From: an uncultured Bacteroidales bacterium
GTDB lineage: Bacteria; Bacteroidota; Bacteroidia; Bacteroidales; UBA932
Length of the DNA stretch: 64,000 nucleotides
NCBI GenBank assembly: GCA_949294195.1
Contig: CASFGK010000004.1
Location: 62,001-126,000 of the forward strand
Reading direction: 5' to 3'
This document shows positions 16,383-24,600 of this stretch, in pieces; the stretch's first letter is position 1; every line of letters begins with the position of its first letter. A model generated the notes under the pieces. It did no database searches. It worked only from the letters and a program-made list of their open reading frames with translations, and was not told the DNA's origin. The translations under genes and the position numbers were made by a program.

Positions 16383-17612
16383 TCAGAGAAGGAGCATCAC
16401 GGCAAAGCAATAGAGAAGAAATCCCTTGAAGGAAAGGTTGCCGTAAGTGCTGAAGCTGAGCAATGTCTCCGTAATGTCACCGGATTCGAGCCCGGCAAGC
16501 CTCCCGGTATCGGGAATGTTCCTGTATGACCATTTGCGGACCAGATAGCCGTGGTCGAAATAGGTCACGCCTCCATTTGACCGGTTCATCGAGACAAGAG
16601 ACTTGTAGTCGGCATAGTATGCACTGCCATACAGATATTTCCATTCCTGCGCTTCCAGACCTGAATTTTCCATGATTTTCTGGAATTCTTCCGGATAGGA
16701 TGCCGTGACAAGCAGAGGGGAAAATCCGTGCATCTGCGCGTTTGCCATGAAGTGCGCAATCTTTTCCCACTTGCCCTTATCCGCCTTCCCGACATCAAAT
16801 ACGGATACAACCATTACCTGCCTTCCAACGGCCAGTTCGCTCATATATTCGCCATCGGCATCGGTAAATGTGAGTTCCGGGAACACTTCCTGTCTGTACC
16901 CTGATTTCAGCACAGCTTTGGATTCCACGAATGTCCATGTAGAATCCGGAATGTTGTCCAGTGAAAACTCCCTTTTCCTGCCGTCTTTTTCATATATCAG
17001 GACATATTCGTACATATCCTCTCCGGCTGCTTCATGTTCCCTTTCTGCGGCAAGAAGTCTTGAGGCCGGCTTGAAGTCGGTATAGTCTACCATCGGAATG
17101 TAGAGCAGATTGTAAACGGTAAAGCAGGCTACACCTGTCATAACCATGGTGAAAGCCACGTATTTCCGTCTCCTGTTGCTGCCGAAATCCCTGTACGGCA
17201 GGAAAGCTGCCAGAGCAAGCGCGCACAGTATCAGGTTCTTGATGAATGTCTGCATGTGCGTCAGATGGATTACTTCTCCGAAACACCCGCAGTCCATGAC
17301 AGGATTGGATATAACAAGTATCAATGCAAGCAGGGTGAAGAATGCCAGGAAAACGGATGCGACTATCGCCGTTGTCTTGCGCCAGAGTCCTGTAATGAGG
17401 GCAGCCCCTGTTGCAGTCTCTAACAGGGCCAGCAGCAGGGCGACCGGTTTGGATGAAAATTCCAGGAAACCCAGATGGAAGAATTTATAGTAGTCAGCCA
17501 TTACCAGGCCGGCTCCTGTCGGGTCCAGCAGCTTGAATATTCCTGACAGAAAAAAGACGATTCCGGTCAGGAAGGCGCAGAAGCGGCGGATTCTTAATGG
17601 CAGAGGTTTCAT
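16383..17612 (-). CDS. DoxX/MauE-like membrane protein (BT_3928 type)
   Basis: The 409-residue protein begins with a four-to-five-helix DoxX/MauE-like region (helices near 14-30, 55-75, 82-102, 118-140 and 152-172) containing VMDCGCFGE, the cysteine motif typical of MauE-like redox proteins. A soluble domain of about 200 residues follows, with a thioredoxin-like pattern (VMVVSVFDVGKADKGKWEKI, HGFSPLLVTASYPEEF) but no CxxC, and a final hydrophobic segment at the C-terminus. The layout matches the BT_3928 family of Bacteroidales. It may shuttle electrons or quinols at the inner membrane; function is unproven. tmk lies upstream on the same strand across a repeat-bearing spacer. Confidence 0.75.
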   Translation of the reverse strand: MKPLPLRIRRFCAFLTGIVFFLSGIFKLLDPTGAGLVMADYYKFFHLGFLEFSSKPVALLLALLETATGAALITGLWRKTTAIVASVFLAFFTLLALILVISNPVMDCGCFGEVIHLTHMQTFIKNLILCALALAAFLPYRDFGSNRRRKYVAFTMVMTGVACFTVYNLLYIPMVDYTDFKPASRLLAAEREHEAAGEDMYEYVLIYEKDGRKREFSLDNIPDSTWTFVESKAVLKSGYRQEVFPELTFTDADGEYMSELAVGRQVMVVSVFDVGKADKGKWEKIAHFMANAQMHGFSPLLVTASYPEEFQKIMENSGLEAQEWKYLYGSAYYADYKSLVSMNRSNGGVTYFDHGYLVRKWSYRNIPDTGRLAGLESGDITETLLSFSTYGNLSFKGFLLYCFAVMLLL

Positions 17613-17642
17613 ATTTTTGTCTGTTATATTTGTTTCAACTTC

Positions 17643-17676
17643 TTTCTTTCATTTTTTCGGGAAAGGTCCTTCCGTC
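17643..17676. repeat. 34-bp direct repeat, copy 1
   Basis: The sequence TTTCTTTCATTTTTTC then GGGAAAGGTCCTTCCGTC is repeated at 17827-17861 with one extra T. This copy lies in the leader of the DoxX-like gene. On the minus strand it would encode the same residues RKDLSRK as the tmk C-terminus. Confidence 0.8.
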
Positions 17677-17826
17677 TATACGGCAGAATCTGACAAAAAT
17701 ATGAAACTTTCAAATCCCCACCGCTGCGCGGAGCCCCTTGTGAAGGGGCGCCTCCCCCACCGCCCCCTCGCCGGGGGCCCGTCGCAGGTACACCTGCTCC
17801 ATATCCTGTCATTTCCCTGTCCCGAC
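17677..17826. repeat. GC-rich palindromic insert between direct repeats
   Basis: The 150 bases between the two 34-35-bp repeats differ from the surroundings. They hold three hairpins: GCCCCTT-gtg-AAGGGGC, GCCCCC-tcgcc-GGGGGC, and GCAGGT-ac-ACCTGC at 17784-17797. The last contains ACACCTGC, the core found in the RAYT-flanking repeats 1-2.5 kb away. No coding sense was seen. This looks like an inserted REP-type intergenic element. Confidence 0.5.
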
Positions 17827-17861
17827 TTTCTTTCATTTTTTTCGGGAAAGGTCCTTCCGTC
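17827..17861. repeat. 34-bp direct repeat, copy 2 (35 bp)
   Basis: Second copy, one T longer. It overlaps the tmk stop codon and encodes the last residues of the kinase (RKDLSRKK). Confidence 0.8.
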
Positions 17862-18564
17862 CGGAGGAATCAGCCTGAGTCAGAACAGCGACAGTTTGAT
17901 CCACCTCCGCTTTCACCTTCGCGAATATATCATCAGGAGGAAGCATCATCCCATCAGAATCCGAACAATCAATGCGGATAAACTTCGGATCACTGGCGCA
18001 CTGGTCCAAATAGACCTGCCGGACACGTTTCTGAAATGACATGTCAGCCTCGTGTATATCATGTCCGCCTGCAAGATAGCTGCGGTCATCTCCCTGGCGG
18101 TCAGCCGACAGCTTCTTCTCGACAAAGGAAATCGGGACATCAAGGAAAAGGTTGAGATCAGGCACAGGCAGGCCAAAGTCTCCGTACTCGGTATCGAAGA
18201 TCCACTGTCTGAGCCTCTCTTTTTCCTGATGACCGGATACTTTCGCACACTGGTAGGCTATATTCGAATACACATATCTGTCCAGAAGTATCGACCCGCC
18301 CTGCTCCAGAACCTTACGCATCCGAGGGGCTGCACCATGACGGTCTTCTGCATACAGAAGCGCTACCAGCTGAGGATGCACTGTCTCGTTGGAGCCGAAA
18401 TCACCTCTCAGGAACCTGCTGATCAAATCACCGTACACCGGAGCGTCATATCTTGGAAAATGAATGTATTCCAAGGATTTGCAGATAGTCTCCAGATATT
18501 TTCTCAACTTTTTGACCTGGGTGGACTTCCCTGCCCCGTCAAGGCCTTCCAAAACTATAAGCAT
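17833..18564 (-). CDS. tmk: Thymidylate kinase
   Basis: The 243-residue protein phosphorylates dTMP to dTDP. It shows the P-loop GLDGAGKST at 7-15, the substrate segment HFPRYDAPVYG, DRYVYSNIAYQ near 97-107 and LNLFLDVPISFVEKKL. At 243 residues it is longer than the usual 205-215. The C-terminal extension VLTQADSSGRKDLSRKK is partly encoded by a 35-bp direct repeat whose other copy lies 150 bases away, so the natural stop may have been altered by insertion of the GC-rich element. Confidence 0.93.
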   Translation of the reverse strand: MLIVLEGLDGAGKSTQVKKLRKYLETICKSLEYIHFPRYDAPVYGDLISRFLRGDFGSNETVHPQLVALLYAEDRHGAAPRMRKVLEQGGSILLDRYVYSNIAYQCAKVSGHQEKERLRQWIFDTEYGDFGLPVPDLNLFLDVPISFVEKKLSADRQGDDRSYLAGGHDIHEADMSFQKRVRQVYLDQCASDPKFIRIDCSDSDGMMLPPDDIFAKVKAEVDQTVAVLTQADSSGRKDLSRKK

Positions 18565-18809
18565 TTTACAGACAATTGATTATACATCTTTTCTTCCAGC
18601 ACGGCATCGAGTCCGCTGCTTCCTGTCTTCTTCTGTCTTTTCCCCGAACCGCGCACAAATTTACATAATTTCCCGTTTGCTGAAAACTCTTCACCCGTTC
18701 CGAACCAAATCCATCCGACCGGTTTTGCCCGCATTCCATCTTCGAAAAGCATCCGCACGTCCTCTCAGCCCGGACATCTTCCGCTTTTTGTGAATTAATG
18801 ACACCCGCC
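18565..18809. other. Non-coding spacer upstream of tmk
   Basis: About 245 bases with no plausible gene on either strand. Its one recognisable element is the tmk -7 box at 18656-18663. The rest is mixed sequence without repeats or strong hairpins, up to where the left RAYT repeat begins. Confidence 0.5.
18656..18663 (-). promoter_or_regulatory. Promoter -7 box of tmk
   Basis: On the minus strand the box reads TAAATTTG, matching TAnnTTTG, 92 bases before the tmk ATG. No good -33 element was seen. Confidence 0.4.
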
Positions 18810-19047
18810 CGGCACACCTGGAAATGGATGATTCCAGAAACCGCTTCACTGTCAATAACTTTCCCCAATGCGCCTGCTGCAGGTGTAACATTTCCCGGCA
18901 CACCTGCAGTAACGAAACCCCATTCCAGGCATCTGCAGGGCGTATCAGGCACTGAAGGTGTGCTTAAATGTGTTACACCTGGAAAAATTGTATTTCCGCA
19001 ATACATTATATTTCAGCACATTCGTGAAAAATCACAACTGCAGGTGT
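18810..19047. repeat. 238-bp direct repeat flanking RAYT, left copy
   Basis: This block is repeated at 20079-20316 with three mismatches. It contains six copies of a core in alternating orientation: CACACCTG at 18813, CTGCAGGTGTAAC at 18877, GGCACACCTGCAG at 18897, AAGGTGTGC at 18955, TTACACCTGG at 18973 and CTGCAGGTGTAAC at 19038. The second and third form a perfect 10-bp inverted repeat, CTGCAGGTGT (18877-18886) and ACACCTGCAG (18900-18909), with a 13-base loop. This resembles a BIME-like cluster of REP palindromes. It ends 71 bases before the transposase start. Confidence 0.9.
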
Positions 19048-19118
19048 AACAATGCTTTGTGTAAACGGATAATGAAATATAGCTTTGAGGCATTCAAAAC
19101 AATAAAACAAGATAAATT

Positions 19119-19985
19119 ATGTCTCTGTATCATATCTGCACGAAAGGATTTCCAGATAGGGTCCTGTTCAAAGACAAAACAGATTTTATTCAAGGGGTAA
19201 ATAGAACCGCCTTGGCATTCAACGGACTTTGCAAGCTGGCTGCCGTATGCCTGATGTCAAACCACGTGCACTATATTGCGGAAGGGAATGAAACAAATGC
19301 AGAAAAAGCGATAGTCAGATTCAAAAAGGCATACAGCATGTGGTTCTCCTCCAGATATGGAGACAGTAAAATTTTCCGCAGATGGCCTCATGCTTTACTC
19401 AAGTGTTCAGACGTGGACTATATGAAAGAAGCTATCTGCTACGTATATAAAAATCCGGCAGGGCATTCAGAAACAAACAACCCCTATTATTATCCGTGGA
19501 GTTCCATCAATACACATTTTCATGACCAGACCTTCGACCAGGTCGGCAAATACATTGATTTCAAAGGACATCCTGCAGAAATATCCGGATTGAAGCAATG
19601 GCAGAAAAAAGAGATTCTCCGGACAAAGGATGAAGTGCCTGAATCATGGCACTTCACTTCCGACGGGATGGTGACATTTGATTCTTTTGTAGACAAGACC
19701 ATTGCAGAAAAGCTGTTCCGGACAGAAAGAAGTTTCAACTATTTCATCCAGAAAAGAGACAAAGACAGTATGAACAGGAACATTATACATCTGGACATGG
19801 AAGAGGAACAACTTTGCTGCGATGTCACTGCCATGAAAAGAGCCTTTGATATTTCATTCCACAAGTTTGGAACCGCTGACTTGCAAACATTAGAAGCAAA
19901 CCAGAAACAAGAAATCATGCTGGAACTTGTCATCAGGTACGGCACTCCCGACTCTATTGCGAGAAGAATCCTTTGTATAAGGTAA
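19119..19985 (+). CDS. REP-associated tyrosine transposase (RAYT, Y1/IS200-like)
   Basis: The 288-residue protein has the HUH single-strand nuclease signatures of TnpA_REP: His49-Val-His51 in CLMSNHVHYI, the catalytic tyrosine region YVYKNPAG at about 108-115, and PWSS at 126-129. RAYTs are domesticated relatives of IS200/IS605 transposases that nick REP palindromes. The C-terminal 150 residues extend beyond the core, ending RYGTPDSIARRILCIR, which looks like the start of a helix-turn-helix cut by the TAA. The gene sits alone between two near-identical 238-bp repeats packed with palindromic cores, the expected substrate of such an enzyme. The codons look less GC-rich than the neighbours. Confidence 0.88.
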   Translation: MSLYHICTKGFPDRVLFKDKTDFIQGVNRTALAFNGLCKLAAVCLMSNHVHYIAEGNETNAEKAIVRFKKAYSMWFSSRYGDSKIFRRWPHALLKCSDVDYMKEAICYVYKNPAGHSETNNPYYYPWSSINTHFHDQTFDQVGKYIDFKGHPAEISGLKQWQKKEILRTKDEVPESWHFTSDGMVTFDSFVDKTIAEKLFRTERSFNYFIQKRDKDSMNRNIIHLDMEEEQLCCDVTAMKRAFDISFHKFGTADLQTLEANQKQEIMLELVIRYGTPDSIARRILCIR

Positions 19986-20040
19986 CGCAATAAGACGACT
20001 TTACCGATCCTGATGCGCCTATAGCCACCAATAACAGTTG

Positions 20041-20074
20041 CCTGTAGGCTTATCCAGCACTGAAGGTATGCACG
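20041..20074. repeat. Degenerate partial copy of the RAYT repeat
   Basis: CCTGTAGGCTTATCCAGCAC then TGAAGGTATGC resembles the CTGCAGGGCGTATCAGGCAC then TGAAGGTGTGC segment inside the 238-bp repeats. It lies just before the right copy and suggests an older, decayed unit. Confidence 0.55.
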
Positions 20075-20078
20075 AACT

Positions 20079-20316
20079 CGGCACACCTGGAAATGGATGA
20101 TTCCAGAAACCGCTTCACTGTCAATGACTTTCCCCAATGCGCCTGCTGCAGGTGTAACATTTCCCGGCACACCTGCAGTAACGAAACCCCATTCCAGGCA
20201 TCTGCAGGGCATATCAGACACTGAAGGTGTGCTTAAATGTGTTACACCTGGAAAAATTGTATTTCCGCAATACATTATATTTCAGCACATTCGTGAAAAA
20301 TCACAACTGCAGGTGT
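20079..20316. repeat. 238-bp direct repeat flanking RAYT, right copy
   Basis: Same orientation as the left copy, offset 1269 bases, three substitutions in 238. The 10-bp inverted repeat is intact at 20146-20155 and 20169-20178. Identity stops at the same CAGGTGT core at the right end, where the left copy continues AACAATG and this copy GTCAAAG, so the core marks a real boundary. Confidence 0.9.
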
Positions 20317-20367
20317 GTCAAAGATGCGGTATGAAAAAATATCCTCATACTGAGTCTGGGCTGTGAT

Positions 20368-20556
20368 TGTCTGCCGTAATCGTTCGGGACAGTTCAGAGG
20401 CCATTGGCCACGGAAAGGCGTGGCCGGCCGCGGCCTCGTGAGCGGCTCCCGACAGGACGGGAGAGGCAGCTGTCGAACTCGTCCGAAGGGTGGATGGAGG
20501 CGAAGCCGGAACCTTTCCGGGACAACGGCAGGAACACGAACTGATTACGGCAGACA
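20368..20556. other. 189-bp element with 14-bp terminal inverted repeats and nested stems
   Basis: Ends are perfect inverted repeats: TGTCTGCCGTAATC (20368-20381) and GATTACGGCAGACA (20543-20556). Inside are GTTCGggACAG (20382-20392) pairing with CTGTCGAAC (20470-20478) with a 2-base bulge. Within that helix are GGCCACG/CGTGGCC (20406-20412 with 20419-20425) and CTCCCG/CGGGAG (20446-20451 with 20458-20463). A separate CCGGAA/TTCCGG hairpin lies at 20506-20520. No obvious target-site duplication flanks it and it lacks RNase P, tmRNA or SRP RNA hallmarks. It may be a structured RNA or a MITE-like element. Confidence 0.55.
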
Positions 20557-20686
20557 TACCCCCGGCATAAACATAGGAACTATTGCGGATAACGATAATA
20601 ATATTACGGAGGATGCCCCTGCTCAGGTAACCCGGTATTTCCGAAAAAATTATCCGGAATAATTTGGTTTATAAAATAAAGTAGTT

Positions 20687-20694
20687 TATATTTG
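20687..20694 (+). promoter_or_regulatory. Promoter of membrane protein/regulator operon
   Basis: TATATTTG with TTTG at 20663-20666 and a 20-base spacer fits the -33/-7 consensus well. Confidence 0.65.
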
Positions 20695-20766
20695 CAAAAA
20701 GAACGGGAAAGTTGCGCATATCCTGTTCAAATGGCAACAACGCCGCAAATTCAAAAAACAAATGCC

Positions 20767-21381
20767 ATGGAAGCGAAAAATTTTACAAGTAAAGAAAGTC
20801 TGGAACTGATTGCCCAAATGATCAGTGAAACAAAAAAAGGAATCGCCGCCGGAAGCGGGAATCCGTTCCTTTGTTACGGATATACGGCTTTAGCCATTTC
20901 AGTGGCAACTTTCCTGATTCCTCAATTCGGAGGTAGCTGGAAATGGAATCTGCTGTGGCTGATGATGTTCCTGCCAGCAGTAATCCTCTGGGCAAAAGAC
21001 CGCAAGGAAAAGCCGGAAATTGTAAGTTATATTGACAAAATGATTTCTAATACCTGGACTGTCGTACTAGAACTGATGATCCTGTCTCTCGTAGTGATAG
21101 TCTTTTCAGGACTGGCCTCCGGGGTCATAAACCTCATGCTGATGCTGCCGCTCGCACTCATATTCGTATGTACCGGCACCCTGATCACAAGCCTTACCAT
21201 CAACGAAGGAAGCATAACCGGAATGACATGCATCAGCTTTACAATGCCGGTACTGCTGCTTATAAGCATGGTTTCCGGGGACGAATACCTTCCGATATGG
21301 AATCTGGCAGGCGGCCTTTCATTCCTGTTCTCACTTGTAATCCCGGGACATATCCTCAACTACAAAGCCAGGAAGTCATGA
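20767..21381 (+). CDS. Multi-pass membrane protein paired with a regulator
   Basis: The 204-residue protein has a short soluble N-terminus (SKESLELIAQMISETKKGIA) and then about six hydrophobic segments: near 38-52, 62-77, 99-118, 122-142, 148-168 and 175-195. No enzyme or transporter motif is recognised. It overlaps the next gene by four bases (ATGA), so the two are translationally coupled. Such membrane protein/winged-helix pairs are common in Bacteroidales, where the regulator likely controls its own operon. ATG 20767 is chosen; an in-frame ATG 12 codons upstream is also possible. Confidence 0.7.
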   Translation: MEAKNFTSKESLELIAQMISETKKGIAAGSGNPFLCYGYTALAISVATFLIPQFGGSWKWNLLWLMMFLPAVILWAKDRKEKPEIVSYIDKMISNTWTVVLELMILSLVVIVFSGLASGVINLMLMLPLALIFVCTGTLITSLTINEGSITGMTCISFTMPVLLLISMVSGDEYLPIWNLAGGLSFLFSLVIPGHILNYKARKS

Positions 21382-21659
21382 AAGAACTGGACCCGTTGCT
21401 CCACTCCCAGCTCCGGCTGGCTATAATGTCTCTTCTACTCAGTGTAGAAGAGGCTGATTTCGTGTGGCTTAAGGAAAAGACAGAGGCTACTGCAGGGAAT
21501 CTCAGCGTACAGATCGAGAAACTTTCAGAGGCCGGCTACATCAGCGTAAGGAAAGAAATAGTCGGAAAAAAGCCGCGCACCACATGCTCGATTACCGAGA
21601 AAGGGCGCACGGCTCTGGATGAATATGTCAGGACTCTGAAAGAGTACCTGCATATTTGA
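21378..21659 (+). CDS. Winged-helix transcriptional regulator
   Basis: The 93-residue protein is a compact winged helix of the MarR/ArsR-like HTH_34 type: LHSQLRLAIMSLLL as first helix, FVWLKEKTEATAGNLSVQIE as the helix-turn-helix with recognition helix, then a wing with YISVRKEIVGKKPRTTCSIT and a dimerisation helix RTALDEYVRTLKEYL. Relatives regulate adjacent membrane-protein genes. Its ATG overlaps the stop of the upstream membrane-protein gene. It ends six bases before the convergent tricorn-like gene. Confidence 0.85.
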   Translation: MKELDPLLHSQLRLAIMSLLLSVEEADFVWLKEKTEATAGNLSVQIEKLSEAGYISVRKEIVGKKPRTTCSITEKGRTALDEYVRTLKEYLHI

Positions 21660-21665
21660 AATTTA

Positions 21666-24600
21666 CTACCAAACATCAGGATCGGCATCAATCTGCTTGA
21701 GCAGTTCGCGGACAGCGACTTCCAGCTGCTCATCCCGTCCGTTTACGGCATCCTCCGGCTTGTTCCTTACGATGAAATCCGGCTGGAGCTGTGAATTTTC
21801 CAGATAATGCCCGTCACGAGTACGGTAGCCTATGACAGGAATGCCGAAATACATTGACGGATCCTGCAGGGTCTCCCAGTTCACGGAAGTCATTGTGCCC
21901 GGCACAGGCATACCTACTATTGAGCCCAGACCCTGGTGCTGGTAGACCCAAGGAGTTCCGTGGGCATTGGAATAATTGTCCTCACTGACAAGCATGATGG
22001 AATGCTTGTTATACCGGCGGGACGGCATATCGCAGACCACTATCCCCTGAATGACTTGTTCGAGGTATTTCTCACCGCTGAACAGAATCTCTATGTCTTC
22101 GTGCAGACGTCCGCCGCCGTTGTGACGGGTATCGATGACTATGCCGTCACGGAGGTTGTACTTGCCAAGAATATCGGCATAGACGTCACGGTAGCTTTCA
22201 TCTCCCATCGAGCGGATATGCACATACCCGAGGCGTCCTCCGGAAAGGCTGTCTACTGCAGCCGCACGGCTCTTTACCCATCTCTGGTAAAGAAGTTCAT
22301 TCTGAACTCCGGAAGAAACCGGTTTGGCAGCGACTTCCCAGCGCTCCCCTGTCTCAGGATTATAGAAAGAAAACAGAGTCAGGACACCCTGCTTGCCGTT
22401 TATCAGAGGGAACCAGTCTTCACCGGCCAGTATCAGTTCACCGTCTATTTTCTCCAGTATTACGCCAGGAGCGACTTTGGAGCCGGATACGGAGAACGGT
22501 CCCCGATCCAGGACTTCATCCACCCTGAGCCCGTCACCGTCATATTCCAGGTCAAAAAGAAGACCCAGCGCAGGGGTCGGTTTTTCAGCGCCTCCGGCTC
22601 TGTAACCGGAACCGGTATGAGACACATTGAGTTCCCCGAGAATCTCGGACAGAAGTTCCGAAAAGTCATAATTGTTGTTGATATGGGCAAGGAAAGGTTC
22701 GTAGTCTTTCTGCAGCTTGTCCAGATCCACCCCGTGGTAATCCGCACTATAGAACTTGCGCTTCTCCTGCTTGAACACATGGTCGAACATATAAGCCCGT
22801 TCGGCAGCGCGGTCAAGTTCCATGCTCATATTGAAATCCACAGGTTTGATCTGCTTGTTTCCGAGTGTCATGACCTGAGGACGGCGCCCGAGGATATAGA
22901 GTTTCTTTCCATCCTTGTCCAGCAGCATCCGGCCGGCGGAAACTCCTTTCTTAAGCTGGGTGATTTCACCTGTACGGGTCTTCAGTTCCCACAAATCGAA
23001 TCCTTTCTCAAAAGAACTCAGGAAATAAAGAGTCTCACCGTCTTCCGTCATGGCCGCGGCCATGAGATTCGAAGACATGGGAGTGAGGCGGATGATACGG
23101 TCCTCCAGACCGTCAAATTCGACAACTATATCCTTGTCCCCGTCCTTTTCTCCGTCAGAAGACTTGTCCTTTTTGCCTTTTTCCGGTTTTGCATTCCCGC
23201 TCTCCGCTTTCTTCGCCTCTTCCTCCTTCTTTTCTGCAGCTTCCTTCTGCTCCTTATACAGAGCATGTTCCTCTTCACTCATATTGAACTCATCATAAGC
23301 CTTCCTGTTCATGAATGCGATGAATACGTCGTCCTGGCTGCCCCAGGAAGCATGCGAGCGCATTCCCAGACGGTTTGAAACGAAAATGACAGCATTCCCG
23401 TCCATCACCCATTTCGGGGAGACATCTATATACCCGCTGTTGGTTATGTTATGGATTTTCCCGTCTCCGGAAGCGGACACTATACCTATGTCACTGTACG
23501 GGTCACGGCGGTTGGTAATCAAGGTAAGGGCAAACCATTTGCCGTCAGGCGACCAGTCGTACTCGAACTCGCCGTAATGCTGTGTGCCGTCGGTTATCTG
23601 ACGGACCTTCCCGGATTCGAGATCAAGTACTTTCAGTACGCTTCTGTTCTCTATAAACGCTATTTCCTTGCCGTCCGGAGAGAATGACGGGTACATACGT
23701 TCCGCACTCTCATCCTTGAAAAGAGGTTCTTCGTCTATCAGTGTGGCATATGCGAAGTGCAGTTCTTCTTCCCTTGCCTTGGTCGCCTTGTAAAGATTCC
23801 ACCGGCCGGTCCTCTCGGAAGCATATACGATGGTCTTGCCGTCCGGAGATACCGTCACCCCCTCTTCCGCTGCGGCAGTGCGGGTGACCTGTCTGGTAGT
23901 ACCGTATTCGCCCGTAGTGGCGAACACCTCTCCACGGCTCAGGAGGATTATCTCGTCACCGTCTTCCGATACCGCCATCTCGTCTACTGCGCCGAGCCTG
24001 ATTTCAGACGGATGGTTGATATTGTCATTGGAAATACTGATATTCACTTTCTCCGGCTGTTTCCCGGATGCCATGGTATAAATCTCTCCCTGATAACCGA
24101 AGCAAAGAGTGCCGTCTTCCGCCCTGCTGAGGAAACGGACCGGATGATCCTTGAAATGCGTAAGCGCTACGGCATTGCCGGCATCATCTACAGGCGCGGT
24201 ATAGACATTGAAAGACCCGCCGTCCCGCTCGCTCAGGAACACCATCTGCCCGTCACCCGAAAAAATCGGGTCGCGGTCCTCTCCGGGATTGGTAGTAATC
24301 TGCGTGTGTGTTTCCTCTGCGGCATCATAGTAGAATATATTGCGGGCAACGGAAGAAGTATGATGCTTGCGCCAGATGTTCTCGCTGCCGGTACGGTCAT
24401 AGTAAAGGAAAGACTCCCCGTCAGGTCCGAAACTTACCGAGCAGACAGGAGTGGCTGTGATCTGCTCCGGACGTCCTCCTTCAGCCCTTACCTTATAAAG
24501 TTCGGTAACCCAGGATGAAGACCACATCACACTCGACGCCGGATCCTGGATGGCGGCAGAAAAATAAATGTACCTGTCGTCAGGAGAAAATGCCAGAGGA

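Follow-up and report, generated by a model that had tools for sequence, protein, structure and literature searches.

The window analysed here, 64,000 nucleotides of contig CASFGK010000004.1 from an uncultured Bacteroidales bacterium, carries a gene for a RAYT-type transposase beside tmk (Table 1). The gene stands between two 238-bp direct repeats, offset by 1269 and differing at three positions. These coordinates and counts agree with an earlier note on this DNA, which also described the transposase as alone between the repeats. Indeed, the interval holds a single intact open reading frame, encoding 288 aa, and no other gene. Each repeat has six positions for a heptameric core, ACACCTG or CAGGTGT. 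Six cores per repeat had been claimed, and six positions are there, but in the left copy five are exact and the sixth contains a mismatch. (Exact cores in 2000 Markov shuffles averaged 0.05, with a maximum of 2.) At its start, the right copy overlaps a third unit, partial and degenerate. Nearer to tmk, a 36-bp direct repeat, 97% identical, lies by the 3' end of that gene (17642-17676 and 17826-17861). The proposed Bacteroidales origin is borne out by a 95% relative, at the same locus, in an uncultured Bacteroidales MAG (CALVAJ010000023.1).

Table 1. Positions of the features discussed (window coordinates unless a contig, C, or locus, L, is given)
Feature	Position	Strand	Remarks
Left six-core unit copy	18810..19047	+	core to core 18813-19047, 235 bp
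RAYT-type Y1/HUH transposase	19119..19985	+	288 aa; NHVH and YVYKNP motifs
Degenerate partial third unit	20029..20093	+	20047-20093 74% of 47 nt; E 3.6e-4
Right six-core unit copy	20079..20316	+	core to core 20082-20316, 235 bp
Putative divergent copy of hairpin element	20368..20556	+	14-bp perfect outer arms; core motif and position
Dispersed unit sites, own genome	C4:129439, C27:67909, C14:82735, C26:43626, C18:25283
Further hairpin element copies, own genome	L006 1721-1830; L007 1678-1788		about 110 nt
Loci of hairpin core inversion	L006 vs L142/L248; L242 vs L193

The open reading frame has the HUH (HxH) motif and catalytic tyrosine of Y1 transposases, and both histidines and the tyrosine are invariant in all 32 sequences of the protein alignment. 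It scores 23.4 bits against Pfam Y1_Tnp (cut-off 23) and 28.2 bits against NCBIfam REP_Tyr_transpos (NF047646; cut-off 80). A profile of the 32 sequences, searched against the PDB, ranked TnpArep (4er8) first, as a weak match (E 0.025); searching with the protein alone gave no hit. Its tyrosine motif is YVYKNP, that of the RAYT alignment consensus (A4) YVLRNP. We read the protein as a divergent RAYT, with weak sequence evidence for membership. In other respects the gene behaves as RAYTs do, which PMC8049555 describes as single-copy and vertically inherited: its genome (G000) holds one cognate copy, the next match there being only 30% identical, and inheritance is mostly vertical, with the gene at the same site in genome G227 and a shared neighbourhood for 27 of the 35 close pairs (at least 60% identity). 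A second RAYT of the same genome (contig C9, L015/L097) is 347 aa long, with 30% identity across 133 residues; no core of the six-core unit lies in the surrounding 3.4 kb, and two related open reading frames, sigma-factor-like by eye, stand on either side of it. Viral contigs hold four distant relatives (22-29% identical).

The repeats define a single unit. Its core spacings, 66/20/55/20/66, are mirror-symmetric and recur in nearly every copy with recognised cores, the relative spacing in nearly all of these being constant to about 2 bp. From first to last core, the length is exactly 235 bp in 36 of 42 aligned copies from five genomes (alignment A6, with 42 of 44 listed unit places; two partial G264 copies, C11 and C2b, were dropped). 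Mean pairwise identity is 63% (820 pairs from 41 rows, G000_C18 omitted). Over these pairs, gap events per substitution number 0.0028, compared to 5/67 in nearby intergenic DNA, a small control of eight alignments obtained from ten comparisons tried; units at orthologous sites show 3 gap events per 369 substitutions (15 pairs). The unit length is locked. Fixed core spacing and a rigid 235-bp unit rule out an open-ended BIME array of small REPs, so the BIME-like arrays of the earlier description give way to one unit of fixed layout.

Base-pair covariation was tested for in the unit, and none was found. A nested structure pairs 90.9% of the unit, yet its covariation is lower than in shuffles; among nine pairings of core-adjacent bases, eight have z values from -1.7 to 0.1, and the remaining one (p2-m3, 2.4) was discounted among nine tests. 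The unit may act either folded or as a protein-bound duplex. Nor is a GT(A/G)G head, placed in REPs at the hairpin's 5' foot, conserved: no alignment column has GTAG in more than 15 of the 42 copies, or GTGG in more than two, and GTAG stands 3' of a core pair. A canonical REP would be a palindrome of 20-40 nt with inverted flanks; this unit is 235 bp long and flanks the gene in direct orientation.

As in a canonical REPtron, the repeats are dispersed. The genome-wide search called for by the earlier note finds seven sites in the source genome: the two around the RAYT, and five elsewhere. Of 121 congeneric genomes (a subset of a larger group), seven match a sequence model of the central unit: five clearly, and two (G277 and G280) weakly. 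With strands merged, unit places number 7 in the source genome, 12 in G227, 17 in G249, and 7 in G264, with one clear place in G270. The cognate RAYT (95-100%) is present in two of the 121, the source genome and G227, after which the best match in this set is 42%. It was not found in the unit-bearing G249, G264, and G270, drafts that are 91, 96, and 77% complete. The highest unit count is that of G249, one of these three; its one other Y1_Tnp match has no exact unit core within 1.5 kb. The earlier note had counted two outcomes against its proposal. One, repeats widespread in genomes lacking the RAYT, is seen in part, in these three relatives; the other, a repeat absent elsewhere in its own genome, is not. 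Many units occupy sites that are orthologous between two or three of the genomes, so the distribution is partly one of inheritance. Viral contigs, searched with one exact unit pattern, gave no match. The C27 unit of the source genome has a tRNA gene about 155 bp upstream (L004 1273-1346).

Units without their RAYT invite another reading: the unit is an independent element of fixed length (a six-site protein-binding array, for example, or a regulatory element) that some other factor spreads, and the RAYT either inserted into it or simply lies between two copies. Three of the five clearly unit-bearing genomes, those where the cognate RAYT was not found, speak for this, as do cores conserved in the face of absent base-pair covariation. 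Moreover, at least two units, those at L192 (G249 C57) and L004 (G000 C27), are embedded in larger elements that have terminal inverted repeats of their own. The evidence on the other side comes from the wider family, where flanking repeats go with the transposase, and on balance this reading appears unlikely.

In a sample of 199 genomes from the family, at least 113 contain RAYT homologues. At E<=0.01, direct repeats bridge the gene at 36 of 58 RAYT loci chosen among the matches listed, but only 2 of 175 genes that lie in the same stretches and served as controls (Fisher p 1.2e-24, for loci that are not all independent: six belong to one orthologous group). Four of the 58 were kept despite a flank shorter than 500 bp, and one positive, L097, probably arises from paralogous genes on both sides. 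At E<=1e-10, the counts are 22 of 58 and 1 of 175. A bridging direct repeat went undetected at 22 loci (E<=0.01). Inverted repeats bridge 14 of the 58, against 2 of 175 controls. In a further tally, made on RAYT loci alone, 24 of 59 show a perfect stem of at least nine whose 8-mer recurs in the other flank; before filtering, the flank-stem tally was swamped by an N run in L139. Loops of 12-14 nt are the commonest in these flanking hairpins, and a universal loop geometry was rejected.

Repeat sharing follows RAYT identity, as the earlier note had suggested should be checked. Where protein identity is at least 60%, flank repeats are common to all 27 pairs with a shared neighbourhood and to 2 of the 8 without; below 60%, at different sites, they are common to 1 of 1654 pairs. 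By this comparison, flank repeats are private to each RAYT lineage. A second unit, unrelated in sequence, likewise flanks the RAYT of G109, from another genus, and is dispersed, being found in 13 of 17 genomes of its genus (in several by short, weak matches) and in none of four outside. Its length was taken as the longest match at 12 loci, selected by a pattern with a length limit of its own: ten loci give 172 bp, one gives 171, and one 173. For this unit there is modest support for folding: across 13 related sequences, a nested structure is 92.3% paired and has 17 cells changed on both sides, versus 9.7 in shuffles (0 of 500 reach 17). (Pairs with changes on both sides number seven, a count that 128 of 500 shuffles reach.)

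This suggests a model, which we think somewhat probable, in which the locus is a REPtron of a Bacteroidales-type RAYT, with the 235-bp six-core unit as cognate element and a pair of units bracketing the gene. The earlier assignment of a RAYT-type gene in a REPtron-like layout is supported. The Y1/HUH enzyme would be a single-copy, probably domesticated transposase, and the unit the non-autonomous element that it recognises, probably on single-stranded, folded DNA during replication. Occasionally, the RAYT would copy the unit to new sites. This mobilisation is inferred; at the sole insertion boundary examined, G249 C57, there is no clean empty site, as the source genome and G264 hold remnants of the larger element there. 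The gene lies between two units of the same orientation; recombination between these would delete the RAYT and leave one unit, and units would persist as orphans once their RAYT was lost. Each RAYT lineage would have its own unit sequence, such that cores turn over and the layout is kept.

Could the whole bracketed block instead be an autonomous element of the IS200/IS605 kind, with the repeats as its ends? Folded repeats of the same orientation at both ends recall those elements, and a second species has a near-identical RAYT. But that species carries it at the same site, close homologues (at least 60% identity) mostly share a neighbourhood, and there is one copy per genome, which together make the proposal very improbable.

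In the REPtron model, bracketing by two units predicts a means of loss, and the tmk-adjacent locus is present in three states. The window and G227 (L046) both have the RAYT and two units; the pair differs at 3 positions in the window and at 24 in G227. The orthologous site in G249 has one unit and no RAYT, joined on one side to the window's left flank and on the other to its right flank as far as 20388. (Beyond that lies other DNA, and similarity to the window resumes at 20641.) Orthologous copies in the window and G227 have 20 and 19 differences. Since the pair occupies one and the same site in both, the close match of the window pair is read from the divergence pattern as homogenisation, most likely by gene conversion.

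The G227 units are as diverged from each other as from the G249 unit (21 and 21 differences), so the two-unit state would be about as old as the split, and the duplication no younger. Loss in G249 is therefore favoured over later gain. The opposite polarity, a single ancestral unit in G249 and a RAYT gained later, draws on the presence of this RAYT in only two of the five genomes clearly with units, and on exchange between species around the locus, which could have spread it. Given the ages of the two-unit state and the split, we hold this order of events to be doubtful. Across window positions 16401-22801, identity to G227 climbs from 70% to 98% at the RAYT and then declines to 77%, which suggests recent exchange of the stretch between species and blurs the polarity of loss and gain. 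Moreover, the G249 unit is a mosaic of the left and right variants: 14 positions resemble one and 11 the other, interleaved. This is a warning of exchange between species, and it rules out a simple single crossover as the origin of that unit. The earlier note had held that the flanking repeats would permit loss by recombination, and proposed a look for empty sites; a one-unit, RAYT-less site is consistent with such loss, but its derivation by a single crossover does not stand. Identity peaks centred on units are present at some loci and flat at others, in a survey made with no control loci, and were rejected as a general rule.

How does this system compare to those described? As in REPtrons, the palindromic repeats on either side of a Y1/HUH gene recur across the genome and follow the transposase lineage (PMC2817692, PMC8266576). 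A REP there is a short palindrome headed by GT(A/G)G, and flanks the gene in inverted orientation, whereas this unit is direct, 235 bp long, and six-cored, with no conserved head. TnpAREP cleaves single-stranded REPs (PMC8266576). Gammaproteobacterial REPs usually exceed 100 per genome (PMC2817692); here, the four genomes with most copies have 7-17 sites. TnpAY1 subclass 2.6 is likewise from Bacteroidetes, with atypical flanking secondary structures that have copies elsewhere in the genome (PMC6006769). Its description, YIH[QN]NP and a median of 179 aa, sets it apart from the present YVYKNP and 288 aa. TIRtrons (TIRYTs) have RAYT-like genes and long flanks other than GTAG REPs, some of them self-complementary and repeated in the genome (PMC3733652); these flanks are terminal inverted repeats, whereas here they are direct. 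Both orientations are represented in the family counts above.

REPINs are another point of reference. The unit's six cores, fixed spacing, 235-bp length, and want of a conserved GTAG head all distinguish it from them. REPINs are paired inverted REPs that form one mobile unit. The likeness is in a composite, quasi-palindromic unit that goes with a RAYT present in single copy and inherited vertically (PMC8049555). A literature search, with subscription papers mostly outside it and supplements excluded, found no description of the unit, the direct-repeat bracketing, or the length lock, and so the system is taken as a REPtron variant not yet described.

These comparisons bear on what keeps domesticated RAYTs in place, on how they come by their repeats, and on how they are lost, questions for which the prior work found deals mainly with proteobacteria. 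The present data supply, across an entire bacterial family, many pairs of transposase and repeat that are unrelated in sequence and alike in layout, together with one locus that is seen with a homogenised pair, with a diverged pair, and with a single unit. Co-evolution, gene conversion, and loss are therefore testable by comparison, and the length lock is a quantitative constraint for any model of recognition. A broader proposal is offered tentatively, as one that may well prove wrong: Bacteroidales would have a distinct RAYT branch, whose cognate elements are long (in the two measured cases, about 172 to 235 bp), length-locked, quasi-palindromic, and private to each lineage, each acting as one folded or nucleoprotein substrate, with bracketing pairs as a built-in route to RAYT loss that leaves orphans.

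A separate hairpin element accompanies some units. The window copy, which starts fifty-one bases past the right repeat, looks like a divergent member, assigned by core motif and position; covariance model R1 does not match it at E 0.01. Pattern search finds three copies in the source genome, all just 3' of a six-core unit, and the model, built from three copies other than the window one, reports five matches there. The element is present in 86 of the 121 congeneric genomes, with up to 30 matches in one. Rfam has no match to it in the window at gathering scores, and nothing up to E 5 that overlaps the two copies examined; nor was the element found in phages, in plasmids, or, with one exact 23-base pattern, in viral contigs. 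Association with RAYTs was rejected, as 18 same-genus RAYT loci (L080-L097) hold no match, and so was dependence on a Y1 gene, since G183, with 13 matches to the element, gave no Y1_Tnp hit.

The outer stem of the hairpin is copy-specific, all 19 of its pairs changing on both sides (34 distinct rows). Over the whole structure, 329 cells are changed on both sides, versus 98 in shuffles, in an alignment fitted to the model and including a few weak or reverse-strand matches; the core is nearly constant. At two orthologous sites, G000 C26/G264 C25 and G227 C17/G264 C53, the core is inverted relative to the adjoining unit. Template switching that corrects and flips the arms could account for the copy-specific stems as well as for the inversion, with no RNA function involved.
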